From: Halichondria panicea
Taxonomy: Eukaryota; Porifera; Demospongiae; Suberitida; Halichondriidae
Assembly: GCF_963675165.1 (NCBI RefSeq)
Contig: NC_087383.1
Coordinates: 3,316,979-3,380,978, forward strand
DNA length: 64,000 nt
Reading direction: 5' to 3'
The translations under genes and the position numbers were made by a program. Under the pieces are notes generated by a model. That model did no database searches. It was not told where the DNA came from and saw nothing but the letters and a program-made list of their open reading frames with translations. Positions 28,871 to 64,000 of this stretch are shown piece after piece. Numbering within the stretch: position 1 is the first letter of the stretch; each line of letters opens with the position of its first letter.

Positions 28871-29488
28871 TGCTAGCTAAGCTACTTTAGCCGTGAAGAT
28901 CAAGCAAGATGGCAGACTGGGCGCGGAGTAGTTGTGGGCGGAATCCAACCAACCGCTGTGCGCCTCTGGCTGTGCGCGCCCAACAACTAAGGCTAGCCTC
29001 GAGACCAGACCGATTATCTGCCTGGATTCTACTAGCCTCGAGACCAGGCCGATTAGGCCTGGATTCGAGGCTAGGATTCTACCTCACAATGTTTTACAGA
29101 GGAAAATTAGAAAAGATTAGCCTCGAATCCAAGCCGACTAGGCTCGATTGTATGCCGCTTAAAGTTAAACAGCCTGGAATCGAGGCTAGCTAAAAAGGGC
29201 CAGATTGATTGGCTAGACTGCTGAGCCTACTTCTAGCTACAGCAGAGCACAGATAGTGTGGAAAGTTACTGCAAATATTAAGGTATTGGATTTGCAGCTC
29301 AAGGCAATCAGCTCAGGTATACTAATAGATCAAGATACTGCATGGTTTTTGTAGACCTAGTTTTGGTAGACTACATGCAAACCATTGTTGGAATATTTTT
29401 CAGTGATTATTACAAACATATACACAGGTGTTTGACCTGACAGCTCCCGGCTTTCAGCGACACGAGACACTGCATTAACCATCCGGAA
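28871..29488. promoter_or_regulatory. Divergent intergenic region between gene A and the cadherin
   Basis: Gene A starts leftward at 28870 and the cadherin starts rightward at 29489, so this 618-base stretch probably holds both promoters. I find no clear TATA element. Its centre is occupied by the repeat at 28991-29190. Upstream non-coding exons for either gene remain possible. Confidence 0.5.
28991..29190. repeat. Composite direct and inverted repeat (GCTAGCCTCGAGACCAGRCC)
   Basis: TAGCCTCGAGACCAGRCCGATTA occurs twice in direct orientation (28993 and 29032). CCTGGATTCGAGGCTAG and CCTGGAATCGAGGCTAG (29057 and 29173) are inverted partners, with a further TAGCCTCGAATCC near 29118. It looks like one or two nested foldback elements. 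It makes several unsupported short ORFs. Confidence 0.75.
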
Positions 29489-35400: not shown

Positions 35401-36077
35401 GACTCCTCTCCAGCTTTTTGGTAGCACTTTCTAGCTTGCTGCCATAGCTTTTTCTCAGTGTAGATATCTCCTTGCTTCTTCCAAACCTCAGCTGAAGATG
35501 ATTCAAGGGAAAGGTGTGTCTGATGCTCGTCTGGTCTGGTCGATTCTGTGGTGGCTATTTCAATAAGATCTCTCTTGTACCAATATTCAAACATTGGCAC
35601 TTTGTCGAGTAGCGAGTCTTCATATATCCAAATATAACGTTTAGCTCTTGTTACTATCGTGTAAAGCATCTTCAGCTCTGCACAGAATGATTTGTGGCAG
35701 GTTTCATCAAATTGAATAGGATGCACATCAGTTTCGAATTCATCTCTTGAAGCTACTTCAGGATGTGCAACAAAATAGCTGGCTGGAATTCTCCACAGGT
35801 CTTGATTCTATTAAAATGAATATAGCTATGTAAACTGTTTTATTTGGAATGGATGTACCAACGAGGCACTAATTAAATAGACTAGCCTTTTTGTTATGCA
35901 TGCATATAATGCAATTTTTATGCATGCGCATAATAATAATTATTGGCCAAAATGTAAAGCCAAATGCCTTGGCATCACAAAGACTCCTTTTTATGAGTGC
36001 CAGATTACAACAACCGTTGGCTTCTTTAAAAGTTTGTGTTCAGTCTAAATTAGCTCTGTATACTTACATTAACTATG

Positions 36078-36118
<41 letters not shown>

Positions 36119-42100: not shown

Positions 42101-45100
42101 CTCTTGATGACATACATAGTTGTACTCACTACATTCCATTGTGCATTCCACTAATGTGAATCTACTTCGGGTCAGGCATGCGAAATAAATTAAGTGCCTA
42201 TACAAAGCAGACACTAAGGTCAATTAATGTGCCTTCTTCTCATGTACTACCTATAATTATAGATCCTCTATATAATAATATATTTGCTTAATACACGGCT
42301 ATCCTTTTTAATATGTACCATTTCAGATATTCTCTCGCTGGACCGTTATCTTCTAGTACCGATCACTCCTTTAATTATCCATGTGCCTGAGTCGGCCAAA
42401 ATCGGGCACAGAGTCGGACCATCTATAAGTCAAATATTAAATGCTCCCTTGAGTCTTAACTATTTCTTACACAGCTCAAAATTATTTCATATTGAAAGAC
42501 AGACTGGTCAGATTTCCTTAAAAAGACAATGTCTTGACTTTGAGTCAGGTCACATTATGTATAACCTTACTATTGGTGTTAAGCATAACGGCTTTTCTAT
42601 TAGTCAATTCAATGTAACTGTTATGGTTGATGATGTAATCGATGAGCATCCGGTCTTCAGTAAAACAGTGTACAACGTAAACATTCCGAATAAATCTCAC
42701 AAAGACACAAAACTTGTTCAATTCGAAATCTACGATAATGATCAAAGAGATAAGCATTCGATTGAAATAACTTCCGTGAAACCCAAGAGTGATCTTTTCA
42801 GTTTCGATCAATCTTCAATGTCTATGTTTGTTGATGGAAGCGGAGGGTTGAGCGAACCAGCGTATGAAGTGATGGTTAGAGCCACTGACTTAGCTGGGTT
42901 AACTGCTGAGGCAACAGTGCTCGTGTCAGTTCACAATCAGAAAGAAACTGTACAATTTGATTACAAGACTTTCGTTCAGGAGAGTACACTTCCTGATCTT
43001 CCAATTTTCGTAATTGATTCAACAATGTACAGTCAGTGTAGGTGTCTCGACAGCAGAGAGCATCGATTTCAGGTTCAGAAAAGCAATGAAAATCATTGGG
43101 AGATTTGGCTAGTAGAAAAACTTGATTATGAGAGAAACCAATTCCTAAACCTAACTGTAGCTTGCCAAAACTCAAACTCACAGATTGTTGCTATATACCA
43201 CGATCAGATAGTTGTCATGGATGCCAACGATAATGCCCCTGTGTTTCCTATACATTTTTCCCAGTATTCTTTCCCTGAGAATTTGAAACATGGCTCTATA
43301 CAGATACCCATAGAAGCTATTGACTCAGACAGCAAGCAGTACGGTGAAGTAACTCGTTATTATCTCGATCCACCAACTCCTGGTTTTGTGGTCACTTACA
43401 ACTTGAAACTGAAACAACATTACATAACAAATACTCACTCGCTAGATTACGAGACACTGAGTGAATACACATTGACAATATTTGCACAAGACGGTAGTGG
43501 ATTGGTGTCTGAGACCCCTCTCACTATACGCCTGTCTGTCACTGATCAAAATGATAATGCTCCCATCTTTGAGAAAGAATTTTACAGCATCAATGTCAGC
43601 CATAACTATTTTGGTCCAACCCTCCAAGTTTTAGCTCGCGATGAAGACTCTTTATCAGCTGTAAAGTATGAACTCCACTCTCCTTACGACTTTGTCACTG
43701 TGCACCCGGACACAGGTCTTATATCAATTGCTCCGCATTCAATTTGTACTGTTCATAGCTCCCTGTATGTTGGGTATGTGGTTGCTATGGATGAAAATGG
43801 ATGTATCTCAGCACCTTCGAAGTTTGAAATCAGCGTGGAGGAATTGGAATTGAATGAATGCCTAGTCGTCCCCGAAGAAACTCATTTTGAACTTCAGATA
43901 CCGGAAAATGTACTTGAGGGTTTCATAATTGGCAGAGTCGTGTGTGGAGGATGTACATCATTCAGTTTATTGACCCAGCTAGTTCCTTTTGATGTATTGT
44001 CCGAGAATGGTGAACTGTTTGTTACGGACCTTATAGACTACGAGACTGATCCACACAATTACAACTTATCTGTGGTTGCCTTGGACACCAATGGGCAGCT
44101 AATCGAAATGACTATCAATATCGAAATCCTTGACATGAATGAACATTTTCCCTACTTTATTCCGCCCATAATCAACTCTATTACTCTTGATTCTAGTGTG
44201 CCTGAGGGCAATGTGTTACTGACCATCAACGCAAGAGATGATGACCTAGGCTCCGAATTTGGTGAAATTTCAAAGCTTACGCTTATTCCATCCATAGCAA
44301 TGCCTGTACTTCCTTTTACTGTTGAAAAGAGTCACGATTGTTCGGGACTGTTCTACCTTAAAGCAAACACCATGCTATTCCAAGAAAAATTACTGTCACG
44401 ACTCAGCTTCATTGATATACTAGCTATCGATGGAGGAGGTGTCTCGTCAGAATATTTAAGAGTCAATGTGGAAATAAAGATTGAAGAAGACCAATTCCCT
44501 CACACTCACAATACACGATTCACTCGTCAAGCTCAAAACGAAACTGAAAATGAAGAAACTCTCTCCCCAATAGAACTTTCAATTGAATATCGAGGAAGGT
44601 CTCGCTCTTTTGAAACCATTGGCTCGTCTTCTCGACCGTTGACTGTTATTGTGCAAGAGAACTCACTTCCTGGAGACTTTGATTTGCTTGTTGATTTAGT
44701 GAGGGAAAACCAAACAGTTTGTCCTGAAATGTTCAGCTCGTTAGAGTTAGTACTGAGTGAGATAGACATTCCTTTCTATGTTGTTAAAAATGAACGTTCG
44801 TGTGTGTTTTCGATTGTGAACGCTATCGTCTTGGATTATGAAAGTGAAAATCAATCAGTCTATTACCGTTTCAATACTCAAGCACTCTTTGATGGATCAC
44901 CGATTGCTGAAATTACAGTAGAAGTGTTTGTCATTGATGAAAATGAGTTTGCTCCGGTGTTCAGATCCAGTTCCTATTCTGTTATATTTCAAGAGAATTT
45001 TATCGGATTTTTGTTCCAAGCTCTTGCCACTGACCAAGATGGAAGTCTAGAGTTCAGTCGAATACGATACAACGTGTCTGGAGATAGCAGTTTTGAAATA

Positions 45101-48100
45101 TTGCCTGATGGATCCGTCCAATCAGTTTTCAGTTTCGATTACGAATTTGCAGATCCCTGCTATAATTTCAATATCACAGCTACTGATGATGGTGGATTGA
45201 TGGGTGTGGCGCTAGTGGAAGCTTGTCTGGAGGACACGAATGATAATTGTTCTCAGTTTGATCGAAGTGAGTACGTCATCAACATACCCGAAAACTCATT
45301 GAGTGAGAAGGCATTGTTTAATCTGTCAGCCATCGACTATGACTCTAGGAGTGACTTTAGTTCCGTTGTTATCTTTGACATTGAGTCGAATGACACGTTT
45401 ATCACTGGAATTATCAGCCTTGTGGGTAATCAGCTGTTTCTTCGCCGAGCTTTGGATTTTGAGTCCGATCCGGCGGTATTTTCCATCATATTGTCGGCTA
45501 CAGATGCCGCTGACAATAAATGTACTACAAATGTCACTGTCCAAGTTGTAAATGAAAATGATTTTCCACCGATTTTTACCGCTGAGTTCGAGCAAGTGTA
45601 TATCCCCGAGGAGACATTCCCCTACACGTTGCCAAACTTCCCAGAGAATTTCTTAGCTTGCTTTGCAGTCACTGATCAAGATGGCGATAATATCACATAC
45701 TTTTTACCATTTCCTTCTCCACTGTTTGAATTGTCTGCCGAGCACGAAGGCTGTATCCTACTAAATGGTTTTTTAGATTACGAAGTAGCGATAAGACACG
45801 AGGTCGAAATATCTGCCACGGATGGAAAACACAATGTTTCTTCTTTCCTGATTGTTGATGTTGAGAATCGAAATGATTTGTCTCTCAAGGTGAAGTCTGT
45901 TCATGAGGTGGATGTATTAGAAGCATTCTATACAACCGATCCTATTCTAATCATTGAAGTGAACAATCCTACACCTGGGTTTAATTATCTCTTCTCGCTA
46001 GACGAGCCCTCGGAAATGTTCCATGTTAGTTTCCGGGGGAGAGTGCATCTTAGAGCTGAGCTTGATTACGAGACTAGAACCTCCCACTCTTTGGCTGTAA
46101 CCGTGGGAGATGGCACAGGCCAAGCTCTACTCACTGTTATCATCAATGTACAGCCAGTAAATGAGTTTCCGCCCATGTTCCTTCGAAATAGAGCATCTCA
46201 AAGGACTTTATCGGAGAATACTCTGCCGGGCTTGTTCGATGTCACCCTCAACGCTATTGATGGGGATAGAGATTCTGCATATCCCATTTTGTACGAGATT
46301 GAATATATCACTGTAGATGGTAAAGCTGTGGACGAGTACAAAGCTGATGGAGTTGTTGTGAAACGTCCATTTGGTGTGATACAGCCTGAGAATAGCGAGA
46401 GCACTGGAAAACTAATTAACACCGAGAGCCTCGACTACGAATCAGATCCCAGACAGTACGAATTGGCCATTTATGCAAATGATACAGTATTCAGATCAAC
46501 CACCCCCTTCCGTTTGACTGTGTATGTCGAGGACGCCAATGACCATGCACCTGCATTTGACAACGAAAGTTATGCCTTCACATTGTCGGAAAAAGAGGAT
46601 AATTTCGAACTTCAAATACCAGTAAACGATGGTGATGGTTCAGAACAATATTCTTTTGTGTCTTTTTTCAGACTAGTTCCAATCTATCCAATTGACGTGG
46701 CTCTTCCATTCTTTATAAGCAGTGGAATAATAAGAAATGTTAGAAGATTTGATTTTGAGCGACCACCAAATGAGTACGTGTTCCAGCTTATTGCATCAGA
46801 CGATTACGGCATGTCTGGTTCTACGAATGTCACCATCACGATTCTAGACGCCAACGACTTTAAACCCGAGTTTGAAAGGGGTATTTACGAAATTACTGTT
46901 CCAGAGACAATTCCTGTAGGATCTGAGATCATTAGAGTGAGTGCAACTGACGGAGATGGTGGATCTCACTTCAATACCATTCAGTACACACTTACCGAAA
47001 GCAGTACTCCTCTGATTGATCTTCCGTTCGATATAAACTCTACCACTGGTATTATCTCACTAAAAACTCCTGTCGATTTCGATGAGGGAGACGAAGGAGG
47101 TGACTTTTTCGTAAAAGCAGAAGATGCAGGTGGTCTCAGCTCAATAACGAGGGTGTTCGTTTCCTTTGAAGATATTAATGATAATGCTCCTTGCCCCTTA
47201 GTGAGAAGTTTCAGCACTCAAATCTCCGAAAATACTTTTTATGATCGTCCACTGAGAAGGATACAAGTGTTTGACATCGATTACTATGCCGACAACCCTA
47301 GGCCTGTTTACTACTTGGAGCCTAGCTACAGTGTCTTCGTCATTGATGGAGCTGGTAGACTATATATGACAGGGCCACTAGACTATGAGGAGAGGCCTGT
47401 ATACAACTTTAAAGTGGTCTCCTCTGATGGAATCCAAAATTGCAGTACTACCACTTCAATTCAAATCACTGTGCTGAATTTAGACGATAATAGACCAATG
47501 TTTTTACCATCTTCATACGAATACAACATCTCAGAAGCTTTAGAGCCTGGGGTGATATTCAACATCTCTGCATTCGACGCTGACCCTCCTGATGAAATTT
47601 TCGAGTATAGGCTCATTGACAACCAGTTTGATTTTCCATTCACAGTATCTGACGATGGTAGAGTGTCGACCACCAGTCGATTCAACGCCGACGATCCCTC
47701 ACAGCAATTAGTGTACACTTTTGAGGCACTAGCGTACAATCAGTACGGACAAGACACTCAACCCCCTGCGCAGATAACCATTCGTATTCTCGATGTGAAC
47801 GACCACCCCCCACAGTTTGACGAGGATGTCTATTTTGTTTCTACTCCCGAGAATACCTCACCTGGAGTTGGGAATGTATTGACTGTTAGTGCACGTGATG
47901 ACGATAGAACTGCTGAGTACAGTACACTTTCTTTTGAGTTAGTGTCCGAATCAGATATTATCTTATCCACATTTTCTATCAATTCTCTCTCTGGTGATAT
48001 CTCTTTAACTAGTGCTCTCGATTACGAGTCCATTTCGCAATTGTTATTCACTTTTGTTGTTATGGCTACCGATGGACTGCACGAAAGGAGAACCAATGTG

Positions 48101-51100
48101 TCAGTACTACTTACTGATGTGAATGAGTTTCCACCACAATTTACCAACAGTACGTACAACATTGTGGTTCCATTGAACGTCCCATTAGGAGCACCTGTGT
48201 ATACATTTGTTGCCAATGACAATGATGGAAGTGAACAATTCGGACAAGTATCAAGGTACATTTTGATTCGAGACAACTCCTTGTCTAGAGGGAAATTTCC
48301 TTTTGAGCTAGCACTTAACGGTACACTGCACACAGTGATCAATGCAACTAACTACGAAGAGACACAATACTCGTTCAGAGTAATGGCATATGACAGTGGG
48401 AACTTGACATCCTCTCTCGTAAATGTTACCATCTTGTTCAGAGATTTTGGCCTAGATCAACTTTTAACTAAACATTGCATTAAACTTCCGGAAAACTCAA
48501 TTGCCTATGTTCCTATTGATTTCCCGTCCATTGGCCAACAAAACGAAAACATCTACTCTTATCAACTAATAGCATCTACGTTCCTAACGTTGTCCGGTAA
48601 TGAACTGAGGCTGACAAGAATGCTGGATTTTGAAGACACACAACATTATGCTGCCAAGCTACTAGCTACCAACAGATTAGGTGACTCTGTGCCAATATCG
48701 ATATCAGTGTGTGCTCAGAACGTCAATGACAATCCGACAGAGTTTGTCGATAGCACCAGACATCTTGTCCTCACCGACAGTAACGAAGTGGGTCCACAGC
48801 TTCTCTTGGAGCTGCTTGACAGAGATTCCAACTGGGGAGAAACAGATTATTTACAATCACAAGCGAGTACCTGCTGTGATCAGAACGACTTCCTTCAAAC
48901 TAACGTCTCATTTGTAATCAGCTCTCAGAATGCTCCATTTGAGTTGAGCCTACAGTCAAATGAAAGTGCTGGTTACGCAGTATTATCTAACACCGTCCCT
49001 ATAGCAGACATGCTGTCTTGTAGCTATGCGTTCGAAGTCATCATCGTCGACACTGATGGGATGTCATCTTCGTCCCCCATCGCTATCAGTGTGAGTATCG
49101 AGAGACCTCCACAAGGATCTCCCACTTTCCGTCAATCATCCTTCACGTTCATCTTATCTGAGAACACTAAAGAGTTCTTTGATGTCTCTACCACACATCT
49201 TTCGGAATTAAATGCCTGTTTGGATCCGAGACTCAGTAATTTTGAATACAGGATACTCAATGGTACCGAAGAGTTGCCGTTTTCTATTGATAGCAATGGA
49301 ATTTTATCTAATACACTGCAGTTGAGCTCAGAAAATTCCCCTGGGCAGTACATGTTTGCTGTCATAGCAACTAACACGGAAGGAGCCTCAACAAGCGTTT
49401 CAGTGTCTATTTACTTGCAAGATACAAATGAATTTTGTCCTGTTTTCAATTCCAGCACTGTTGATGTAACCGTTACCGAGGACACAGCTGTAAATACAAT
49501 CATCTTGTATCATCCTGCGTACGATCTGGACGGTAGCGAGTTGTATGGACAGGTTTACTATAGGCTGGTTGCTAGCGGTTACAACCCGTTCCTCTTACAC
49601 CCGAATGGTTCTCTTTATCTCTCTGAGCTGTTAAACTATGAAGACGGCATGTCGGAAGTCACCCTTACCATGCTTGCTAGTGATGGCACAATGGAGCTGG
49701 ACTCAAATCTAGGTCTAGCTTGTCCCTATACTGAAGCTGCTATCACTATCCAAATACAAGACGTGAACGATGAGCCTCCATTCTTCCTTGTTCGTGGCTA
49801 CCATTTTGACGTGTCTGAGAATGAGACAGCTATGTTCCCGGTGGGTGGCCTATCCTTCGAAGACCCTGATGTCCTAGGTAACGAATTCTCATTTGAAGTT
49901 CACCCCATCAATAGCCCATTTGAAGTTACATCGGAGGGGATCCTCATCTTAACGCAGCTGCTTGACTATGAGTCTCTAACGACGACGCAGTTCAACCTCA
50001 CCGTGTCGCTTTCAGATGGTATCTATTCTGCTTTAGAGGATGCCGCCATTGTTGTCAATATTATTAATGTTAACGAGTTTGCCCCAACAGTAGCACAAGA
50101 GATAACTGATGTTCTTGAGGAGAATTACATCCCTGAAAATGGTATTTTAAGAGTGAGAGCAACTGATCAAGATTTGGGATTGTTTGGAGAAATTGTTCGA
50201 TTTGAGCTCACTGGGGCTCAGAGCCACTTATTTGAGGTCAATGAAGAAGGTGTTATTACCAACCTGCAAGAGTTTGACTATGAGCTTGATCAGCGTGAGT
50301 TTACTTTCATGGCTCTAGCGTATGACGGTGGTGGGAAAAGTTCTTCAGTGTTAGTCCGCATCTCTCTAGTGGACGTGAACGACAATTCCCCGGTTTTTCA
50401 GGAAGATATTTACACCGTTAATATATCCGAGTCTGCAACTACTGAAGTGCATAATATAGCTCGAATTCGTGCCACTGATATCGATGGCACCTCGCAATAC
50501 AACACCATCACGTACTTCATCCCCCCTGGTCAACCATGCTCTGACTTTTTCCAAGTCCATCCTACACTAGGCATCGTTCGGATAGTCCGTGAGATAGACT
50601 ATGAGAGTAATCCCACCAACTGCTCACTTACAGTAACTGGCTCGGATCCTGAACAGTATGAAGCGTCAACAACAGTGCACGTCTCTGTATTGGATACGAA
50701 CGAGCATCCTCCGGTAATAGAATCTCAGAATGGAGAAATCTTTGTGTCAACTCACGAGGCTTTGGATATCGGTTCCAAAGTGTTCCAACTCATTGCGACG
50801 GACGGTGATGCTGGTCCTGTGTTTGGGGCTGTAGTGAGTTATACTCTTCAGTCGTTGTCTTCAACTCTACCTTTCACTGTGAATGAAGCAGGAGAGATAA
50901 TATTGTCAGGTTCCATCACAAAGAATGATCGATACGATTTCCGAGTGTTTGCTGTCGATGGAGGAGGTATGGAATCTGAAATAGTAGCTGTTCATATTAA
51001 CGTAACACAGGCAAACTTTTTCTCACCAATAATATCAACTTATCCAAATGAACTCACTGTGGATATTGAAGAAAATATAATCCTCTCTAGACCACTGTGG

Positions 51101-54100
51101 ATTCTGGAAGCAAACGATAGAGATGAAAATGATATTACTTTCCGTGTTCTGAATGGAATTGAGAGTATTATTAGAATTAATCAGGACAGCACATCACCTA
51201 ATTCAACCAGAGCTGTTGTCTGGCTGAATAGTAGACTTGATTTTGAGCTTGGCTCTTCCTACTTGTTCCAGATTGTAGCAAATGATGGATTCCATTCTTC
51301 TAATCCAGCTCTCCTCCAAATTAGAGTTGTGCCCGTGAACGAACATCGCCCGATTTTCTCGTCAGGTTTCCTTGAAATAGAGATCCCTGAGAACACTCCC
51401 CCAGAGACGTATGCCATACCGATCTCTGCACATGACCTGGACAAAGATGTACTTACTGATAGTGAAGGTATTAACGCAACTTCTCACGGTATGCTCACTG
51501 AATTCTATATAGCCGGTGGGACAGCAAGCTCTTACTTCAAGTTCTTCAATCACACTACGGACGGCCGTGCCGTACTTACCAATACAGCTGTGTTAGACTA
51601 TGAATTTATCGATATTAACCTCGATCTCACATTGCAAGTTCGTGATGGTGGTGGATTAACAGCTTTCGAACCTCTGATAATATATTTTACTCTCTTCGAC
51701 CAAAACGATTTCTCCCCAGAATTTTACCAGGGTAGGAACCAAGTTGATGAGTATTCGGCTGAAGTACTTGAGAACAGTGATGGTCATGTGGTACGTGTGT
51801 ATGCTATTGATAGGGACAGCAGTTACCAGTACAGTGAGGTGTCGTACAGATTGATACTCACACAAGATCAACCATTTGATGTTGACAGTCAGGGGCTTAT
51901 ATTTATGACCCGACCTCTCAACTACGAGTCTGATCCTAGTGTGATGATATTCACTGTAGTAGCTGAAGATATCGGAGGCTTAAATGACACTGCTACGGTC
52001 ACAGTCAGTATTCGTGATGTGAACGAATTTGCACCAGCTTTCAATAGCAGTCAAATCACAATCTCCATCCCTGAAAATACCATTCCTAATTCCATAGTGC
52101 ATACATTCAGTGCCGTGGATAGAGACGGCAGTGACATTTATAGAACTGTTGGTGGGTATAGGGGCAGTGGTGTACCAGGCATCTTCTTCTTGGACGAGGT
52201 ATCAGGAGAGCTGTACCTGAACAGTGTGAATCTAGATTTTGAAACTGGTCAGGGAGAGTATAATTTTGAGGTGACAGTCTCTGATCTTGAAGGTTTGTCT
52301 TCGATCGCCAGTGTGACCGTGCAGGTCACTGATGTGAATGAGTATCCACCTGAGTTTGACCAGAATTCGTACTCTCTTACGATAGCTGAAAATTCCTTGC
52401 CAGATCCTCTACCAGGTTATCCGGATAATTTTCTCCTTCAATTAGTCGTGACTGATAGAGATGGAAGCAGTGGCTTGCCATCACTTGATATTTCACGGAG
52501 CGATATTTTTACAATTAATACCAATGGCTATCTCATCCTCAATTCAGAATTAGATTATGAAATTGATGATGTTTACGAGCTACAAGTAGTCGCTAATGAC
52601 GGTACCTACAACACAACAGCAGGCATCACGATCACTGTTATAAACGTGAACGACAACCGTCCCTTGTTTATTCAAACTAACTACACTATTTGTATTGTTG
52701 AGAATGTTCATCGAACTGACCGACAGGCACAGCTGTTATTCGAAGACTTTGATGCTGAATTAAACACACTTACCTTTGCAATGGACCCCCAAGTCCCTCA
52801 GTTTAATGTGACGGCCGATGGTGGTGTATATCTAACCACACCCCTGGACTACGAGAGCACTCCGTTAATAAAGTTTAACATTTATCTGTACGATGGTACA
52901 TTTAGGTCTATTTCTAACGCTTCAATTAGCGTGTACGTACTGGGAGTGAATGACTTTCACCCTCAATTTGAGACTAGAGAATTCCGGACCTCCATTAGAG
53001 AAGGAACACCCTCTCTGAGTACAATCAACTTTGATGATCCCTTCTTTGCAATAGATATGGATGCACCTAACCTATACACTGAAATCTGTGTGCCCAACTA
53101 TATCCCTGTTGATACGCTAGGAGCCGAAAACACGGTGAAATCAGCTCTTTCATACACAATTTTAGAGCAGAATGTCCCATTTGAAATTTCCGTCAATGAG
53201 GGTACTGGATTACCTTATATTGAATTAACAAGAGAGCTCGATTTTGAAACTGAAAGGCACGAGTATGCACTGACTGTTGTTGTCACTGACGGTGAATTTG
53301 AGAGTATACTGCCGGCTAGAATAATTATAAATTTGCTGAATGATGACGATAATTCCCCTGAATTTGAAAAGATCTCGTATCAGTTCTCTCTCTTTGAAAA
53401 CTCACTCGAATTCTTAGCAACAATTACAGCCACAGATGCAGATCAGATGGGAGATATAACCTACTCCATAACCGAACTGTCTGAGGTCAATTTTCAGTTC
53501 AACATTGATACTGCCAACGGTACAATTTTCAGTGAGGGGCCATTCGATTTCGAGGCATACCCTAATGGAATAAATTTCACGCTTACAGCTACCGACAGCG
53601 GCGGACATGTAGCAGAGGCTATTGTTACGCTATTGCTGGTTGATGTGAATGATGTTGAACCTGTCTTTCTACAGCCTCTATACAATTTCTTTGTCCCTGA
53701 GGATTCTCAAATTGGAGAAACAGGCCATTTTGTTAGCGCCATAGACGGTGATGTATCAGAACGGTACCACACTATTACGTCATACACTGTCATCAATGCT
53801 AATACTTCAGTGCATCTACCGTTTGAAATCGGCCAAAATGGACAGCTGCTGTTGACGAGGGAACTAGACTATGAGACTGGAGTTAGAATGTATCACTTCA
53901 ATGTAGCCGCTATAGACGGTGGTGGGCTATCCTCTGTACCAGTGCAAGTTGTTGTCATAGTTACAGATGTACTTGATACAGCTCCGTGTCCTACAAAGAA
54001 TACTTATGCGGCTTCTGTTGTAGAAAATGTTGTACCCACTCTGCCGCTAATAATTGTACAACTTGATACCACATCTCAGTTTGAACAGTCTCAACTAATT

Positions 54101-57100
54101 TACGAATTAACTCCTCAAAGAGACGAGTTTGTTTTCAGAGAAAGCGGAGCACTCTATCTAACTTCACCACTAGACTATGAGAGAGAATCTGAACTAGTTT
54201 TCAACTTAACCGTTACATACGGCACGTTTAGTTGTCCTATCTCAACAGCTGTCAATGTGAGAGTTATCGATGTGTTTGACGTAAGGCCAGAGTTCACAAA
54301 GTCCTCCATTGATGTCACTGTACGGGAAAACGTTGCTGCAGTGGACATAACTTTTCTCAGCCTAGTTGACTCGGGGGATGAGCAGCCTCCTATTTTGCAA
54401 TATATCCTCTCTCCTTCCGCTGTACCATTTCTTGTAACGGGTGGATATTTGCGCTCAACTCATCCACTTGATGCCGAACAAAAGACAAATTACACCTTTG
54501 ACGTCTTTGCCGTCTCCATTGGCAACCTCACATCAGATCCCATCCGTGTAACTGTACTGATTGAAGATGAGAACGAATTTGTTCCCGAATTTACACAAGA
54601 AGTGTACGAGCTCATTTCCCCTGAGGATATACCTGTTAACCAAGAAGTGCTCAGAGTTGAAGCTACTGATCTTGACGCTGGCATTGAGTACGGTACCGTG
54701 ACATACTCTATTGCTTTCATACCGGGTAGTGTACCCATTCCATTCGCTGTTTCTGGCACCACCGGTTCTGTGTATCTCAACACGTCTCTTGACTATGAAA
54801 CGCTATCTGAGCTAGACTTTTACATTTTTGGTATTGATGGTGGTGGTTACGAATCTTCTACGCGGGTGCATGTTATAATTACAGATGTGAACGAACACCC
54901 CCCTCAGTTTGAACAACCATCTTACACCATTCAAATAGAAGAAGGAGGAGATGAAGATTACGAATTGTTCACATTTGACCAACTCGCTAGTGATTTGGAT
55001 GGTAGTCGTGTCTTTGGAACTGTCGTTGGTTATGAACTGATGCCCCACAGCGATCAAAAACTTCCCGTAACTGTCTCAGAATTTGGTGATATAATCACTA
55101 ACGAATTTGCTGCTGATATCGACTATGATACTGGAGATAGAGAGTTTCATTTTCAGTTGGTAGCTCGAGATGGAGGTGGACTTATATCTGAGCCAGTTAA
55201 CGTTACCTTGGAGGTTATCAATGTGAACGATTTGGCACCTATTATTCAGCAACAGATTGTAATCAGAATACCTCATACCACTCCTCTTTTTACAGAGATA
55301 GCCGATTTGTCAGAGTACGTGGTGGATCCTGATAATGGCATAACCCCGATTCAATATTTCATCATAAGTGAAGAAACTGCTGAATTTGAAGTGGAGGAAA
55401 TAAATGGCACACTTAGTATCGTGGAAGAACTACAAATCACTGGTAACTCTCCACACCAAATATTTGTGGTTTTGTTTGATGATGATTTCTATTCCCGTGT
55501 TTCCACTATTGAAGTTTACGTTTTCAATACCAGCAACCTCAGCCCGTACTTCAATAAAACCAGATACAATATCACAATCCCTGAGAATTCTGTGCCCTCA
55601 GATTTTCAATTGACTCTACTAGCATTTGATGAAGATGCTATTGGGTATAGCGATCCATATGATATTCCAGAATCAGGGAGAATTGCATCTTACCAATTTA
55701 TTCTAGGTCCTATGTTTGAAAATCCATTCACTCTATCTTTTGTCAATCCTGACACTGGCTCTACTACTCTGTCTCTGAGTCGGCCATTGGATTTTGAGTC
55801 GGAATGTGAGTTCACACTAAGAATCAGTGCTGCAGACGGAAGTGGTAGAGATTCATCCAACCATGTCGAAGTAACTATCACAGTCTTAAACGAGAATGAA
55901 AATATTGCTACATTCCCCTCTGATGACTATTTCATTGATTTAGAAGAAAACTCTCTCCTCCGAAGAGATCTTAAAGTGATGGATCTTGATCGAGAGGGTG
56001 TTTGTGGTGAGCTAAACACAAACCCTCTCAAGTACTCCCTGATATTTCCATCGAATACAAACCCTCCATTTGAAGTATCTGACTCCGGTATTGTACAGAG
56101 TACAAGAGTGTTTAATTTCGAGCAAGACCCCACCCAGTATACATTCGAGGTGGTGGTTATCGATGGTGACTTCTCTGATTCTGCTACTATATCCGTGTCC
56201 GTTATCGATCAAAATGAACACAGTCCCACCCTTGAACAAGCCGAGTACACAAGAACAGTCAGTCGTGATGCAACACCTGGAACGATTGTACTCACACTAA
56301 ACGCTACCGATGAAGATGCTGGTGATGTCTACGGCAATGTGGTGGACTTTAAACTTATTTCACTATCAACTCCATTTTCAGTACGCTCAACTGGAAAACT
56401 AGAAGTTGTGTCCCCACTGGAGGCTGGTGTTAACAGCTATAGATTACTAGTAGTTGCAATAGATGGTGGAGAAAGACAGTCGGAAACACCCTCAGTTGTT
56501 AACATTGAGGTCATTGAAAAGATGCCAACACCACTCCCTACGTTTCTTCAAATCAATTACACCCTCACTGTGACCGAGGTGGCAGCTGCCTCTTCGTTTG
56601 TACCCATCCCTATCGGACATATTCGAGTTTCTGAAAGCTCTCAATCATACTCCTTTGAGGTATCGCCTAGCAACTCACCTTTCCGAGTCAACTCAACTGG
56701 CACAGTTTTAATGACACAAGCACCTGATTATGAGCAGATCCCAATGTTTGAATTCTCTGTAAGGATTTCTGATGGAGCCCAATTTTCTACAGAGCAAGCT
56801 CGTGTGCTAGTGATGGTAGTGAACATCAACGACCATTCGCCATTCTTTGCAGGCCCTCGGCAATTCTCTTTACCAGAAAACTCTATTCGTCAATTCCAAG
56901 TATCTGCCCTAGACTTAGATCATGGTGTGTACGGTCAACTCAGTTACAGATTAATTGATGGAATTACTAACTTTAGAATCGATCAAAATGGCTCTCTACT
57001 GAATCTCCGACATTTTGACTATGAAAATGACGAAGAAATATTTGTAATAACGATAGAAGCTGAAGATGATGGAGGCCTCAAGGGAAATGCAACATTTGTA

Positions 57101-60100
57101 GTTGAAGTGACGGACGAGAATGAATTCCTTCCTGTTTTTGAGAGCAATGAGTACAATGCAACTGTTGTTGAGAACTATGTTGGTCAGGTTCGCATGATAA
57201 CTGCAGTGGATAGCGATGGTGGAAGTGTGTTCGGATCGGTAACATACACGCTGGAGATAAACTCGGCCTTATTCGATATTGACCCAACCTCTGGTGAAGT
57301 TGAAGTCACAGGCATTTTAGATTTTGAGGCCTTGCTGAGTGACTCGATAGATATTGTTGTGATGGCAACTGATGGTGGCGGGTTAGAGAGTAAGGCCACT
57401 GTGCGAGTGTACGTATCAGACGAGAACGAATTTGCCCCCGTGTTTGCCGAGTCTGCATATAACCAGTGTATTAATGGTACTCCTTCTATTGGTGATATTG
57501 TGCTAACGATATCGGCTATTGACTCTGACAGAGGAGACAATTTTGGCTCCGTAACAAACTATAGAATTCTCAATTCCTCGCCACCTTTCAGAATTGATGC
57601 TCAAGGGCAAATCACGGTATCAGAACAGCTGGAGGGACAACGAGGGGATGTGTATGAGTTTGATGTAATTGCTGTCGATGGCGGAAGAAGGAGCTCGCAG
57701 CCCGTGACCGTATCTCTCGTCTTGTGTACTCAGGTTATCAACAGTCCGCCATATTTCACACAGCTCATTTACAATGTTGTCGTGACCGAAGAGACGCTAC
57801 CTTCAGAGCCGATTGTGCAGCTGCTTGCAACCGATGATGCGTTTAATCTTACCGTTCCAGAAATCACATTTGAGCTCCTTAACCACCTGTCTTTGTTCAG
57901 GATAAATCGTGAGGGAAGTATGTGGCTGACTACACCACTTGACTTCGAGCAGGTGACAGAGTATGTTGTTAAAGTGAGAGCATCTGATGGTAGCCACTTT
58001 AGCGAAGACAACGCCACTGTGCTTGTATCAGTGTACCCCGTGAATGAGCATAGGCCCAGATTTGATCAGGATGTCTACCGAACTGTACTAGCTGAAAATT
58101 CACCCCCTGGTTCTCTCCAGATTGAGTTTGTGCTCAGTGACGAAGATAATAATCCACCCAATGAAATAATCTCGCAACTAGGTGGTCACGGTGATGTTCA
58201 GTCCGTCATTTTCCACTCTGGCAATTACCAAAATTTCAATTTATCGTACGACCAAGAATCACAAGTGGCCCGTATCACAAATTTAATGTCATTCGATTTT
58301 GAGACTAGTCCTGAGCAAATATCATTCAAAGTGATAGCACAAGATGGTGGACTGTTAAACTCACTGCCAGTGCAAGTGCAGTTATCTCTCATTGATATAA
58401 ATGATGTAAGACCCGTCTTTCAACGTCTTGTTTATCAGTTTTCCATCTTAGAGAACTCTAGAGGAATAATTGGCGAAGTATCTGCCGTTGATACCGATAT
58501 TAGCTCCGAATTCAACCAGATATCATATGCCATCACACATGGTGATGTTCCAGTGCCATTCACTATTCATCTTAACGGCTCACTCGAGCTGCTACGGGAA
58601 CTAAACTACGAGGTTGATGAATCTTTCTTCGAATTCTCTGTCTTAGCGACTGACAAGGGTGGACTTGACAGCTCAGCAAGTGTTGAAATAACTATACTAG
58701 ATGTGAACGAATTTCAGCCAATTATCGAAAATCCACCAACCTCATTTGAGATTATGGAGAACATTCCTATAGGTACTGTCATAGCAACAATCACAGCCTC
58801 CGATGAAGATGCTGGTGATTTTGGACAGCTAGAGCCTCCACAAATCATCGGCCCATCTCATTTTCTTGGTATACTATCAAATGGCTCACTATTCATCGAG
58901 TCTGCTGTCGACTTTGAGGCTCTTATCGAGGCATTTTTCAACATCACAATAGAAGTTTGCGACATTGGCCAACTTTGTGTGAATCACAGAATAGCAGTGT
59001 CGGTACTAGATGCTCACGACCTACCCCCGATGTTTAGTACTCACGAATACACGGTTGTAATCAGCGAAGAGCAGTTCCCTGATCCAATTCCTGACTTCCC
59101 TCAAAATGCCCTTCTAAAACTCCAACTCGACATGCAAAACTCATTCTCACTAACATTCACGTTCCAAACCAGCTCAAGCTCTCTGTCTGTAGATCAAAAT
59201 GGTTACGTCATCTTGTTGTCCCCCCTCGACTTCGAAACCGATCCACCTGTCAACGTACTGATCGTTGAAGCGTTTGATGGTACACTCAGAACAGCTCAGC
59301 CGGCTATCGTTACTGTGACTACTATCAATGTGAACGACAATCCCCCAACTTTCATATCACCTCCAACTCAACCATTCTGGGTGAGCGAGAACAGTATACC
59401 CGAAGTTCCCCTCTATACCTTTCTTGCTGAAGATATTGACGACCCTCTAGCAGTGATCAGCTTTCATATTTTGAATACCACAGAGCCGCAAAGAGAAATT
59501 TCAGGAGGCTCTTTCGTTATTATGGAGGATGGCAGCCTCCATCTCGAAGAAGCATTGGATTATGAGATGGTGCAGATGATTGAGTTAACGGTTGTTGCTA
59601 ACGATAGCATGCTGTTATCAGATCCCATCATGGTTATGATCAATATAATCGGGCAGAACGACAATGCTCCTGTATTTAAGACAAACTACATAACTGCAAA
59701 TTTGTCTGAAAATAAAGTCCCTGGTACCTTGAGTGTAAAAATACTTGCACAAGATGCTGACCTTCCCAATATTGCTTTCGGTCAGGTGATAGCAGACAAT
59801 GTCCGCTACGAAATTATCTCTTCTTCTGCTCCATTTGCTGTGAACTTTAACGAACAAACTGGAGAAGGGACAGTGACCAATGAAATCATGTTTAATTATG
59901 AGACTATGGAAACAAATTACGAGCTTCAAATAAGAGCTATAGATAGCGAAGGCCTGGAATCAGTAACGCCTGTCACTGTGGTCATCAACATTATTGACGT
60001 GAACGAGTTTCCACCTGAATTTGATCGCGAGTTGTACAACAGCACGTTGGTCGAAGGTTCTTCTGTTTTTGAATTGACTGTGAGAGCCACTGACAACGAT

Positions 60101-63100
60101 GGTAGCCTCGAACACAGCTCTATAAGATACTCAATATTTCAAGAAGAGTTCCGAGCAAACTTTTCCATCTCTGAAATTGGTCAACTAGAGCTACTCACAG
60201 AGTATGACTATGAGCTAGGCCCCGAGTATATTGATTTTGCAGTACTGGCTGAAAACATTGATGGCCAATTAGCTTCTGTAGCAAGCGTACACATTCAAGT
60301 TTTGGACAGAAATGACCACAGCCCAAATTTTGAGAGAACTTCCTATAACCTCTCAATATCAGAAGACCAAGAGATTAATGTTTCTGTTCTCCAAGTCATT
60401 GCAGTTGATGGAGACAAGAGTGAGGAATATGGAAGCATACAAATGTACTCATTTTTAACTGACAATGAAGAACTGCCGTTCAGTATAGACTCCCAAACTG
60501 GTGATATCATTTTGACTACTGCTGTGGATTACGAGCTGGGAGCGATCGAGTATACAGTAACTATCCGAGCTGAAGACAGTGAAGGATTATTTGGAGTAGC
60601 TAGTTTGTTCATCAGTATCATGGATATAAACGATAATCCAGCTTGCCCTGTTGACTCACACCTCACAGCTTCAGTAATAGAAAACACTCTACCAGATGGT
60701 CCCTTGTTGACTATAAATGTCAGCGACCCGGATCAATTGCAAACTACAATTCAATTCACTGTGATTAGTGATTATTCTTCTCAATTTACGATTAATTTCG
60801 ATGGAGACTTGTATCTTGTGCAAGCTCAAGACCACGAGAGTTTGTCATCCCTACAACTAAATATACAAGTTACAGATGACACGCTTGTGTGTCCATTTCT
60901 ACTGAATATATCAATTAGTATTGATGATGTGAATGACAACAGTCCGCAGATATTCCCACCATCCGCAGAACTATCGATCGCAGAAAACAATGTCGACCTT
61001 ATCCTCACAACATTCACAGCATTTGACCTGGACAGTTCACCGGAATTCTCCACCATTTCTGGGTATCTTGTTGAATCACAAGAATCCGGAGCAGCCGTTC
61101 CCTTCACAATTTCTAACGCAGGTGTATTGAGTGCTGAAAGGTCTTTGGATGCAGAAGCTGACCCTGCCGTATTCAGACTGTTTGTATATGCTATTGATGG
61201 CCAAGGACTGAAATCAGTACCATCAAATATTACAGTGTATGTTGAGAATATTAACGATCACCAGCCGCTATTTCAACAAACTGAGCACTATGTGCCTTTG
61301 CATGTGGACACGCCTAGAGGCACTAAGATTCTACAAGTGACAGCTGATGATGATGACATTGGTCTCTATGGTGAAGTAACATACATCTTGCTTGACAGTA
61401 CACCCTTCTCAATTGATGCAGTGAGTGGCAGTATTTACACGGCGACTAACTTTGACAGTGAAACTGAAAGGAATATGTTTGTGTTTACAATTGTTGCCAC
61501 TGACGGTGGAGGATTTATGGCTATCACTACAGTTACTGTGGAGTTAACAATCGATGAAGTGTTTGTTCCGGAAATAGAACAGCTCAATTATACCACTTGC
61601 ATTGATGAGAATACACAATTGAGGACTCCTGTACTAACCATACAAGTTGCAGGCACTCAGAATTATACCGTCGGCTTTCGAATACGATCTGATGAGGCAA
61701 TTCCATTTGAAATTAACTCACAAGGAGTAGTCCTCACAAGCAGCTTCCTCACTGACTTTGAATCTGGGAAAATCCTGTATACTTTCTCTGTGCTGGCACT
61801 AAATGGTGATGTTTCATCAGAGCCAGTAATGGTGACTGTGTGTGTTAATAACGTGAATGACAACCCTCCATTCTTTCAGGAAATAGTAATGGCCATCTCA
61901 CTTGAAGAAGGATACACTGGATTTGTAACTGATATTGAAGCTCTCGATCCAGATGGGCCAGTTACTATAGTGACGTACAGCTTAATCGGTAGCACTCGTA
62001 ACTTTAGGCTTTTCTCAAATGGCAGTCTCTACCTTGAGAGCCCACTTGACTACGAGCTAGCCAACGAAGCTACAATCAGTGTAATTGCAAACGATACACA
62101 ATTCCAATCTAAAGCATTACAATTAACAGTGACTGTTATAAACATAAACGACAATTCTCCCGAATTTGTGAATACAGCTTACACCATGGAGCTACTTGAA
62201 AACGAGCCAGCATCAACGATCATTGAAGTGCTGAGAGCCACTGATGCAGATGCCTCAAAAAACTTCTTACCTCAACCAGCATTTGCTCAAATCGTGAGAT
62301 ATGAAATACTAGAAAGTGACGTTCCATTCGAAGTTCGTCTAGACCCAGGGACACGCAACGGACTGCTAGTTAACACCAGAGTGATTGATTTTGAAACTGA
62401 TGAGTGCTCATACAATTTTTCAGTAGCTGCTGTGGACGGGGGTGGTTTGTATTCAGAAGTTAATGCCAGTATCAGCGTCTTGATTCAGAATCAGAATGAC
62501 AACGAGTTGAAATTTGATAACGAGACTTACTACTTCATGCTATCTGAAAACACAGCTGGTCCTCTTGGAAGTATTAAAGTGACAGACAAAGATTATTTAG
62601 CGATGAAGAGATGTCCCATTTCTCAATCAAACTCGTTATCGGACATTGTATATACTGCCTTTGGCCAAGAGGGGACAGTGACTGTAGATAATGAGGGACA
62701 GCTGCTAGTAACGCAGCCACTGGACTATGAGACATCAAACAGACAATTAGAAGTTGTGGTATCTGCAATTGATGGATTTTACAGTGCCATAGCAACAGTG
62801 TTTATTGCCCTAGTCGATGTGAATGAGTTTTGCCCAGATATAAGAGAAACAGTTGCTACTGTGCGTATTCCTGAGTCTACAGTAGCAGGAAATGAGATAT
62901 ACCGGATAGTTTCCATGGACGCTGATGGAGATGGTGATAACAGCAACACTCTTTTTGAAATCGTGTCCAACAATACACAGCTACCATTTTCAGTGACTGA
63001 AGATGGAGGGATAGTTTTGCTAAATAAAATTGACTTTGATAGAAATCAATCCTTTTATTCATTCCTTGTTCGTATCTATGACAACAGCGGAGACTGCAAT

Positions 63101-64000
63101 GGTATATTCATCACACTTCGAGTTGAAGTCACCAACGTAAATGATGAGCGGCCATATTTTGTGGAGACTTCTTATTCATTTGTTGCATCCGAGTCCCTTC
63201 AACCAAATTCTCTCGTTGGCCTCATATCTGCAAGAGATTTAGACATGTTTCGATCTGAGTTCAGTTTTACTCTCCAGCCAAGTAGTGTACCCTTCTCGAT
63301 CAATTCCTCTGGATATCTCGTCCTAGAAGAAGCGTTGGACTATGAAGAGACCAGTAGGTACAGCTTCGTTGTGCAAGTGAGTGATGGTGAGCTGAGAGCA
63401 ATGGAGCCTGCCGAAGTCATTGTTACCGTTGGAAATGAAAATGACCATCCCCCTGAATTTATTGGCCCCTTTGTTTTCAACCTACCTGAGAATGAACTGA
63501 CGTCTTTCTTCGTAAATGTCATCGACAGAGATGACGGAGAAATGGGTGAAATCACACACTACTCAATAAACTCATCGAGAAACGATATCTTTACAATTAA
63601 CGATCAAGGTGCTATTTCGAACATGATTGCACTAGACTATGAGTTGATGAGTGACAGTGCTTTACCTCATGTTTTTACGCTAAATGTGTGTGCCTATGAT
63701 AGTGGTGACAAGAGATCATGTGATGACTTCACAGTGATACTTCAGGATGTGAACGACAACACACCACAGTTTACAAGACCCGTCTATACAGTTGAAATCC
63801 TTGAGGGTGAAAGTCTAGACAACATTATACAAGTACAAGCCACAGACCTTGATAAGAGTGCAATATTCAGTCAAGTACAGTACAGTTTTGAAGATTCTAG
63901 TCTCACTCTAGCTGCTCAATACTCACTCACTTTGAGTGACAATGGCGTGCTGTCCTCAACTCATGTGTTTGATTACGAATCAGATTCCATTCAGATTGTA
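29489..64000 (+). CDS. Giant cadherin, 5' complete, open at the window edge (at least 7,561 aa)
   Basis: Extracellular calcium-dependent adhesion protein by family. Exons: 29489-29646, 30101-30275, 30380-30512, 30626-30637 (12-base micro-exon, least certain), 30857-30946, 30993-31024, 31082-31273, 31348-31401, 31454-31537, 41825-41903, then 42327 to beyond 64000. Phases match throughout. The protein starts MPGNHILLLLAILAVAGC, a clear signal peptide, then about 320 residues I do not recognise. Cadherin repeats begin near 42350 and continue to the end at about 107 residues each, with PEN starts, ATDxD, LDYE/LDFE and DxNDNxP or DxNEFxP calcium motifs. The reading frame is the same at every motif checked from 42329 to 63962. 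About 67 repeats are visible, against 34 in Fat and 27 in Dachsous. Transmembrane and cytoplasmic parts lie beyond the window. Several repeats lack calcium residues or carry cysteine pairs. Intron 9 (10.3 kb) contains gene B on the other strand. Confidence 0.9.
30626..30637 (+). other. Candidate 12-base micro-exon of the cadherin
   Basis: TTTACAG precedes CAGCCAGACAAG, which is followed by GTATGT. Including it keeps phase 1 and adds four residues; skipping it also keeps the frame (30512 to 30857). Either choice gives GGTQCLQYS for the next exon. Only transcript data can decide. Confidence 0.4.
31708..41446 (-). CDS. Gene B: TPR / ankyrin / UvrD-type helicase protein, TRANK1-like (7 exons, 2,670 aa), nested in a cadherin intron
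   Basis: Exons 41446-41369, 41309-41028, 40220-40043, 39945-39181, 39120-36185, 35807-35190 and 34863-31708; 8,013 coding bases with consistent phases. The N-terminus has TPR-like helices (KEALWEYEHCISYI; AYDCYKKSFEIEK), then ankyrin repeats spanning the 39181/39120 junction (SPLIVATHLALKTGNTEIL; NGLTPLQIAEQ). An acidic linker leads to the SF1 core: Walker A GRSGTGKTT (about 878), DEAQD (about 1221), NHRSHSG, CKGLEFNDVLLYNFF, and motif VI LYTIVTRAKR (about 1463). TPR-like helix pairs fill the next 700 residues. Near the end are an acidic patch, a CIIC..H..H zinc-finger-like motif and a charged coiled coil. This TPR-ankyrin-helicase order is that of vertebrate TRANK1 (TPR and ankyrin repeat-containing protein 1), whose biochemical role is poorly known. 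The start ATG is inferred; a further 5' exon is possible. Confidence 0.87.
34978..35181. mobile_element. TTCGTGG-type MITE in gene B intron 6 (copy B)
   Basis: A 204-base unit closely similar to 25185-25394 along its whole length and in the same orientation: GTAATTTTCGTG start, GGTCTGACCACGAATATTTT, GTGCAAGCTCCAACCACGAA, and GGTAATTTTCG at the far end in reverse. Its right end is 7 bases from the donor GT of the 35807-35190 exon (GT at 35189-35188). The paralogous intron of gene A (24443-24384) is only 60 bases and has no MITE. Confidence 0.85.
36079..36114. repeat. (AC)n microsatellite in gene B intron 5
   Basis: About 17 uninterrupted AC units followed by CAAACAAACAAACA, in the intron between the 39120-36185 and 35807-35190 exons. 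The rest of this 377-base intron shows no other feature. Confidence 0.95.
40221..41027. other. Gene B intron 2
   Basis: An 807-base intron containing a GT microsatellite at about 40390-40413 and an AATTATAATTATA-type AT-rich patch. Short open frames on both strands have no coding signal. I see nothing else in it. Confidence 0.6.
41447..41824. other. 5' flank of gene B and end of cadherin intron 9
   Basis: This 378-base stretch should contain the gene B promoter, within the cadherin intron and 378 bases from the next cadherin exon. There is a possible gene B acceptor just upstream of its ATG (TGCAG near 41461), so a non-coding first exon may lie here. No core-promoter motif is obvious. Confidence 0.4.
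41931..42085. mobile_element. Decayed MITE of the GCGCGAAATTTTCGAGG family (copy 2)
   Basis: CTGTATAGCGCGAAATTTTC.. starts near 41931 with a second partial end TATAGCGCAAAATTT near 42027 and a degenerate right arm GTGCCTCAAAAATGTC near 42070. It matches the ends of the element at 6031-6268 but is shorter and more diverged. It lies in cadherin intron 10. Confidence 0.6.
42327..45547 (+). repeat. Cadherin repeats before the first full marker-to-marker block
   Basis: About ten cadherin repeats. They include unusual members: one with a QCRC motif (near 43040), one ending without a DxND motif (near 43840), and an over-long repeat from about 44484 to 44935 with an Arg-rich linker (TRFTRQ, RGRSRS). 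By position they would match the last ten repeats of the next block. Confidence 0.6.
45548..52326 (+). repeat. Higher-order cadherin block 1 (21 repeats)
   Basis: It begins with a repeat carrying EETFPYTLPNFPENFL just after its PEN-like start and contains 21 repeat boundaries. Marker repeats inside: an over-long repeat at about 46150-46531, a Cys-Pro start at about 47190 with a later NC, a long repeat at about 48720-49090 with LSCSYAFEV, a repeat without LDYE at about 50690-51001, and an NEHRP boundary at about 51330. Confidence 0.7.
52327..59004 (+). repeat. Higher-order cadherin block 2 (21 repeats)
   Basis: It begins with the matching marker ENSLPDPLPGYPDNFL. At the same repeat numbers as block 1: an over-long repeat at about 52940-53330, a Cys-Pro start at about 53985 with a later SC, a long repeat at about 55510-55880 with SECEFTLRI, a repeat without LDYE at about 57415-57730, and NEHRP at about 58035. 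Confidence 0.7.
59005..64000 (+). repeat. Higher-order cadherin block 3 (partial, cut by the window)
   Basis: It begins with EEQFPDPIPDFPQNALL. At matching repeat numbers it shows an over-long repeat at about 59645-59995, a Cys-Pro start at about 60650 with a later VC, and a long repeat at about 62145-62485 with DECSYNFSV. About 16 repeats fall inside the window; the last one is incomplete. Confidence 0.65.

Follow-up and report, generated by a model that had tools for sequence, protein, structure and literature searches.

The question that this locus raises is how a very long array of cadherin repeats comes to be assembled, whether by the addition of single repeats or by the duplication of larger units. 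The window, that is, the whole stretch of 64,000 nucleotides that was analysed (C7:3,316,979-3,380,978, from a genome of 131 Mb in 39 contigs), was studied together with the adjoining 40 kb downstream. The genome has Wnt matches, and since Wnt components are reported not to occur outside animals in the findings to date (PMC4054682), it is taken to be that of an animal, a sponge being a guess; innexin gave two matches slightly above the cut-off of 25 bits (27.4 and 27.2 bits). We consider that it holds one giant cadherin gene whose array has grown by nested tandem duplication, a reading to which we assign a probability of about 0.88.

A plus-strand open frame begins at window position 42,263, runs to 64,000 and continues for 9,534 bases past the window before its stop, giving 10,424 codons in total (frame analysis, with the sequence extended by 40 kb). 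Unless stated otherwise, coordinates are window positions on the plus strand. As the 5' end of the frame resembles a splice acceptor (TTTCAG before ATATTCTCTCGC), the start exon probably lies upstream of 42,263 and is absent from the frame. An HMM built from the array's own repeats finds ~89 cadherin repeats in the frame, with repeats 5, 87 and 41 scoring lowest (14.6-15.7 bits, the weakest at 14.6 bits). In the segmentation, repeat 1 was lengthened by hand and small gaps between adjoining repeats were closed. The Pfam scan comprised residues 1-5,000, which match PF00028 at 1.3e-239, and the last 1,249 residues, which match it at 7.8e-9, while residues 5,001-9,175 were covered by the array HMM and not by Pfam. 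All of the blocks described below sit within this one frame, and the single exon of ~31 kb to which it would correspond is a predicted gene model.

Other parts of the window also contain open frames. Upstream of the acceptor, at 41,400-42,262, there are short open stretches that include a candidate start exon with a signal peptide (e.g. the ATG at 41,474). On the minus strand, large open frames between 21,159 and 39,967 form two tandem sets, which we take to be TRANK1-like. The frames at 25,343-28,876 and 36,050-39,151 have weak UvrD-helicase matches and are 51% identical over the aligned part, and those at 21,159-24,404 and 31,708-34,932 are 41% identical.

The periodic part of the cadherin array starts at repeat 8 (44,627) and consists of three full blocks and a partial fourth that ends past the window, with phase 1 a convention fixed by the left edge of the periodic region. 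Block A (repeats 8-28; 44,627-51,358; 6,732 bases) is defined by offset scores and phase ranks, and block B (repeats 29-49; 51,359-58,063; 6,705 bases) by offset scores, a block search and phase ranks. Block C (repeats 50-70), defined by offset scores, the block search and phase ranks, occupies 58,064-64,000 and ends 711 bases past the window, which makes its full length 6,648 bases. The fourth block, D, is partial (repeats 71-79); it lies past the window, is followed by the tail, and is recognised by phase ranks and the block search. The first-pass annotation had proposed a 21-repeat higher-order period with at least three copies of a ~6.7 kb block, and had advised extending the sequence past 64,000. 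The proposal is confirmed, and in the further 9,534 bases of the frame block C is completed and partial block D is found. For the extent that it gave to the array, 45,548-64,000, the period stands; the start has to be moved back to repeat 8, and the partial fourth copy lies past 64,000.

Seven N-terminal cadherin repeats (repeats 1-7; 42,374-44,506) are placed outside the 21-register by their phase ranks, the expected phase ranking 20, 16, 6, 3, 5, 21 and 17 of 21. These ranks do not support the idea that repeats 1-7 formed the closing part of an older block. Bordering the periodic array, a 40-residue stretch without a cadherin repeat (44,507-44,626) holds an R-x-x-R site. The position of repeats 1-7 outside the register is, with the nested period of about four repeats and the apparent slip in the fourth block that are discussed below, a point that goes beyond the earlier description of this DNA.

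In order to measure the period, all pairs of repeats were aligned and the scores were double-centred, which corrects for each repeat's general similarity. Offset 21 has a mean corrected score of 31.3 (68 pairs, z 7.6), as against -2.4 for offset 20 and -3.0 for offset 22. The score is 25.3 at offset 42 (47 pairs, z 5.5) and weak at offset 63 (10.0; 26 pairs, z 1.6). A rise at offset 21 relative to offsets 20 and 22, and again at offset 42, is what an all-against-all matrix had been expected to reveal, and the contrary outcome, no rise at all, clearly fails. Window-only data (repeats 1-67) give 37.8 at offset 21, -1.5 at offset 20 and -7.8 at offset 22, and offset 21 still scores 30.5 once the effect of length differences is removed. 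Repeat length itself is correlated at lag 21 (0.76 over repeats 8-79; -0.23 at lag 20 and -0.26 at lag 22). In local self-alignment of the array, the path along offset 21 has a score of 2,093 and that along offset 42 a score of 1,172, with 60 shuffles reaching 885 at most; a third path, made up of various short offsets (4 to 13), reaches 1,067. Along the +21 diagonal, 49 of the 51 scores for repeats 8 to 58 are positive, and the signal fades on either side. The marks of a super-repeat, namely peaks at a fixed offset and its multiples together with collinear blocks, are present at 21 and 42 and weak at 63.

Had the array grown through single-repeat additions or irregular duplications, a 21-step could have arisen by chance or through a few odd repeats, and some of the data lean that way. 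Raw identity at offset 21 is 0.306, compared with 0.282 at offset 20 and 0.281 at offset 22, an excess of only ~2.5 points over the neighbours; it is in alignment score, not in identity, that the excess is large. The single best match lies at 21, 42 or 63 for just 26 of the 72 repeats (shuffled labels give a mean of 2.5 and a maximum of 14 in 2,000), and the tree of single repeats is mostly without resolution. Speaking strongly against such growth, none of 2,000 shuffles of repeat order reaches the observed 31.3 at any offset from 1 to 59, the maximum being 19.6. So too does the removal of 19 marker repeats, after which the 53 that are left of repeats 8-79 score 35.4 at offset 21 (32 pairs), -1.7 at offset 20 and -6.8 at offset 22; the period is therefore independent of the marker repeats. 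When block B was searched against the genome as one unsegmented protein, collinear copies were recovered at multiples of ~6.7 kb, with 427 bits for block C (1,330 aa), 395 for block A (1,211 aa) and 337 for block D (871 aa), so the period is also independent of the segmentation. The best listed match of block B outside the gene has 142 bits. We find growth by single repeats or irregular steps scarcely credible in the face of these results. Under duplication of whole blocks, each repeat has a proper phase, and the correct phase of 21 ranks first for 41 of the 63 repeats of blocks A-C and among the top three for 55; the ranks in partial block D are 3, 1, 7, 1, 2, 1, 3, 1 and 5.

Rare variants recur at fixed phases of the block. 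Phase 4 is marked by the motif FP..P.FP.N.L (by alignment and motif) in repeats 11 (45,578-45,889), 32 (52,358-52,669) and 53 (59,036-59,353), with looser forms past the window in repeats 74 and 79. Alignment places a Cys-Pro boundary with a partner Cys in phases 8-10 of block A (46,874-47,818), and the same Cys pair in blocks B (53,669-54,592) and C (60,332-61,273). These Cys-Pro boundaries fall between repeats 15/16, 36/37 and 57/58, and both Cys are invariant in the three-copy alignment of A, B and C; in block D, repeats 78 and 79 have no Cys. The segmentation gives over-long repeats at phase 6, namely repeats 13 (126 aa; 46,181-46,558), 34 (132 aa; 52,970-53,365) and 55 (115 aa; 59,678-60,022). 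It likewise gives long repeats at phase 14, namely repeats 21 (LSCSYAFEV; 48,746-49,129), 42 (SECEFTLRI; 55,553-55,915) and 63 (DECSYNFSV; 62,168-62,515). NEHRP boundaries, which the first-pass annotation had reported, are found at the ends of repeats 28 and 49, and block C does not end with the motif. The positions which that annotation had named for the markers are right to within ~50 bases when repeat starts are taken. Its account of their origin, duplication of a whole block followed by strong divergence, is supported, as it best explains the 51 consecutive repeats in register, the length profile and these phase-fixed oddities.

Trees of the repeats are less informative. The ML tree of single repeats gives weak and mixed evidence either way, because it has ~100 columns and its end branches are near one change per column (105 of 217 columns were kept, and the rare insert columns were dropped). 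Of its 76 inner branches five carry a star, and among the four starred pairs of two rows a single one (25/67) unites repeats of equal phase. It had been anticipated that marker repeats would group together in such trees, and this holds for repeats 16/37/58, which form a clade (91/79), and for 11 with 32, which fall in a four-member clade with 28 and 31 (82/84). It does not hold for repeat 53, which lies outside that clade, or for the triples 21/42/63 and 13/34/55, which are ungrouped. As for the order of duplication, a quartet of blocks A-D over phases 1-8 gave AU p values of 0.067, 0.42 and 0.63, none of the three topologies being rejected at 5%.

Over ~2,100 positions, identity among blocks A, B and C is 29.5-31.7%. 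At fourfold third positions, pairs at offset 21 match in 205 of 717 cases (0.286, compared with 0.275 expected from composition), which is no better than the agreement at offsets 20 (0.315) and 10 (0.312). Nothing at these fourfold sites points to a recent duplication or to gene conversion at offset 21, and dating by silent sites was abandoned as they are saturated. Given the ~30% identity and the saturated silent sites, the block duplications are judged to be old. Phase-specific features have nevertheless been kept in spite of this saturation, as might also be seen if the 21-period were a product of selection, with equal-phase repeats converging because they share a role in a complex of regular spacing (a ruler). 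A parallel exists in titin, for which positional conservation matched to the thick filament has been proposed (PMC10665226). Convergence would hardly reproduce inserts, pairs of cysteines and repeat lengths through 51 repeats in a row, and we regard it as a very improbable origin of the period.

Tandem duplication of the block remains the preferred reading, and the block itself appears to have an internal structure. In the matrix folded on 21 phases, cyclic offsets 4, 8, 13 and 17 are positive (8.2-8.7), offsets 5, 9, 12 and 16 are weakly positive (3.3-4.7), and all others are negative. An inner period of 21/5 = 4.2 repeats has a folded mean score of 8.4 at its multiples, and only 0.56% of 5,000 phase shuffles are as good, each given the best of five periods (p = 0.0056). 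Clustering of the phases yields the class string cbbaa cbda dbda cbda bbda, or five sub-units in the pattern 5+4+4+4+4, with class labels that are derived from the same scores. At offset 4 the strength of the signal varies from block to block (1.7 in A, 13.0 in B and 4.5 in C). On this evidence the 21-block seems to descend from an ancestral unit that was some four repeats long.

The classes differ in their linkers. The calcium-linker motifs of cadherins are E, DxD, DxE, xDx and DxND, and in repeats 8-79 they are mostly intact; with all classes taken together, DxD is found in 60 of the 72 repeats and DxND in 49. Class a repeats have the weakest entry linkers, with a mean of 3.7 of 5 motifs compared with 4.1-4.6 for the other classes. 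In a hand count made after the fact, 6 of the 10 weak linkers (<=2 of 5 motifs) precede class a, which accounts for 21 of 71. Special joints about every four repeats are therefore a possible feature of the protein.

Such joints bear on how the inner period arose. The 4.2 period could have been generated, in a 21-block that was assembled otherwise, by selection against similarity between neighbours or by an alternation of structural roles, for instance that of a flexible joint, and the tendency of weak linkers to precede class a would fit this, as would the negative mean scores at offsets 1 to 3. Another cadherin array of the same genome, G3 (C7:3,794,001-3,813,000; array at ~3,794-3,809 kb), has its own period of 2/4, with even offsets positive and odd offsets negative, and shows no detectable class relation to the present array (p = 0.74), which again suits an origin by selection. 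The class order 5+4+4+4+4 and the p value of 0.0056, on the other hand, fit a copied unit, and we think selection a tenable but unlikely source of the inner period. The same p value gives no support for a link between the four-repeat unit and the array of period 4 in G3. Some alternate repeats of G3 appear to bear a Cys pair.

The fourth block departs from the common register near its end. Repeat 79 is closer to phase 4 than to its register phase, 9, and repeats 71-74 compared with repeats 76-79 score 89, 49, 44 and 107 (712-3,591 bases past the window). A local five-repeat copy, or a slip, is likely to have occurred here.

Taken in order, the history of the array probably had three steps. First, a unit of about four repeats (class order x-b-d-a) would have been copied to five, and one gained repeat would have brought the block to 21. 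In the second step, which is well supported, the 21-block was copied in tandem, within the present open frame, to give three full blocks and a partial fourth. Third, some five repeats near the C-terminal end were likely re-copied or slipped. The copies afterwards diverged to ~30% identity. Each position in the block has tended to retain a length, cysteines and a class of its own, so the copies have been kept as distinct parts and not homogenised, and selection keeping the phases apart after duplication is likely.

The 21-repeat period is seen in this array alone among those long enough to be compared. Eight further arrays, with 17-48 repeats each, were analysed in the same way; they come from seven regions of the same genome, picked among the 151 reported matches. 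In the five that have at least 12 pairs at offset 21 there is no rise (-4.7, -5.6, -3.0, -1.3 and 0.2), three of these five having gaps of >60 residues that may break the register. Of the remaining arrays, one has 5 pairs at offset 21 (-2.9) and two are too short for that offset. The cadherin G1 (C16:563-580 kb), Fat-like by domain content and so labelled here, resembles the present protein in joining many cadherin repeats to laminin-G domains. It differs in having an EGF domain and in its score of -1.3 at offset 21 (16 pairs, two array gaps), and it matches block B at 142 bits. Contig C16 carries six giant cadherin-bearing open frames of 3,499-7,948 aa, four of them in 465-938 kb and two near 5.5-5.66 Mb.

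Block duplication itself is already known from nebulin and titin and, at five domains, from cadherins. Nebulin has seven-domain super-repeats with an autocorrelation peak at seven, duplication of several domains together is a common growth route of domain arrays, and cadherin arrays have an average duplication peak at five domains (Bjorklund et al. 2006, PMC1553488). Nebulin resembles the present array in that a unit of several domains has expanded in tandem, which shows as a peak in similarity autocorrelation, but belongs to another domain family, has a unit of seven and not 21, and has a repeating exon pattern in place of the one open frame found here (PMC1553488). The A-band of titin has a similarly nested history, in which small tandems became longer super-repeats that were copied again and some positions kept their features (PMC10665226). 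It differs in being made of Ig and FnIII domains in muscle, and in having the thick filament as a proposed periodic partner, none being known for the present array (PMC10665226). Cadherin arrays in general share a multi-domain unit of duplication, with five in place of 21 and its inner four or so (PMC1553488). Fat and Dachsous, with 34 and 27 cadherin repeats, fall far below the ~89 counted here (PMC11497213). A 21-repeat cadherin unit was not found in the literature surveyed, which covers the matching papers in part.

C-terminal to the cadherin array, Pfam identifies two Laminin_G_3 stretches. A strong hydrophobic stretch near residues 10,394-10,423 is a candidate membrane span by hydropathy only; the top value, 3.24 per residue, is at the C-terminal end and the next highest elsewhere is 1.87. 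The product is probably a single-pass membrane protein. In classical cadherins the cytoplasmic tail binds catenin, and such a catenin-binding tail is absent here, where only 2-3 residues lie between the hydrophobic span and the stop. Members of the Fat, Dachsous and CELSR families have a family-specific EGF, laminin-G or GPCR region and a conserved cytoplasmic tail. The Pfam-scanned parts of this protein contain no EGF or GPCR match, and there is no room for a cytoplasmic tail. Calsyntenin combines cadherin repeats with a laminin-G-like domain beside the membrane; laminin-G is present here, and a calsyntenin-specific Pfam match is not among the matches listed. No other match to the C-terminal 924 residues was found among the 11 candidates scored in the genome. 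An AF2 model of these 924 residues was unusable (pLDDT 32), and one of repeats 36-38 (pLDDT 70.7, pTM 0.38, TM-scores ~0.3) is consistent with a cadherin fold.

Putative processing sites may also be present. R-x-[KR]-R occurs at a single site in the 10,424 residues, an RKKR that lies 9,394-9,405 bases past the window and ~14 residues before the span. R-x-x-R occurs at 15 sites, one of which is that in the 40-residue stretch at 44,507-44,626, at the start of the periodic array. Either of these, the RKKR or the R-x-x-R at 44,507-44,626, could possibly be used for processing.

A cadherin repeat is ~4.5 nm long, and at that length the 89 repeats would extend over roughly 400 nm and a 21-repeat block over roughly 95 nm. 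Most likely, the product forms a very long filament whose domains are stiffened by calcium. From its domain content, it would most likely serve as a tether of long range or as a filament of the matrix, a set of special joints recurring with each block. A more elaborate reading, which we consider doubtful, is that the protein acts as a molecular ruler or shed matrix filament, in which the ~95 nm block would space special joints or binding sites and a convertase acting at RKKR would free the whole ~400 nm ectodomain. If this were true, the protein would be an extracellular cadherin counterpart of titin, in an animal that may be early-branching.

The array provides a clear fossil record of how a long adhesion protein may have been built up, from about four repeats to 21 and then to three and a half copies. 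Its 21-domain unit is unusually large when set against the duplication peak at five domains reported for cadherins (PMC1553488). Many phases have kept their own features, and the blocks therefore make selection on single positions of a giant cadherin testable.
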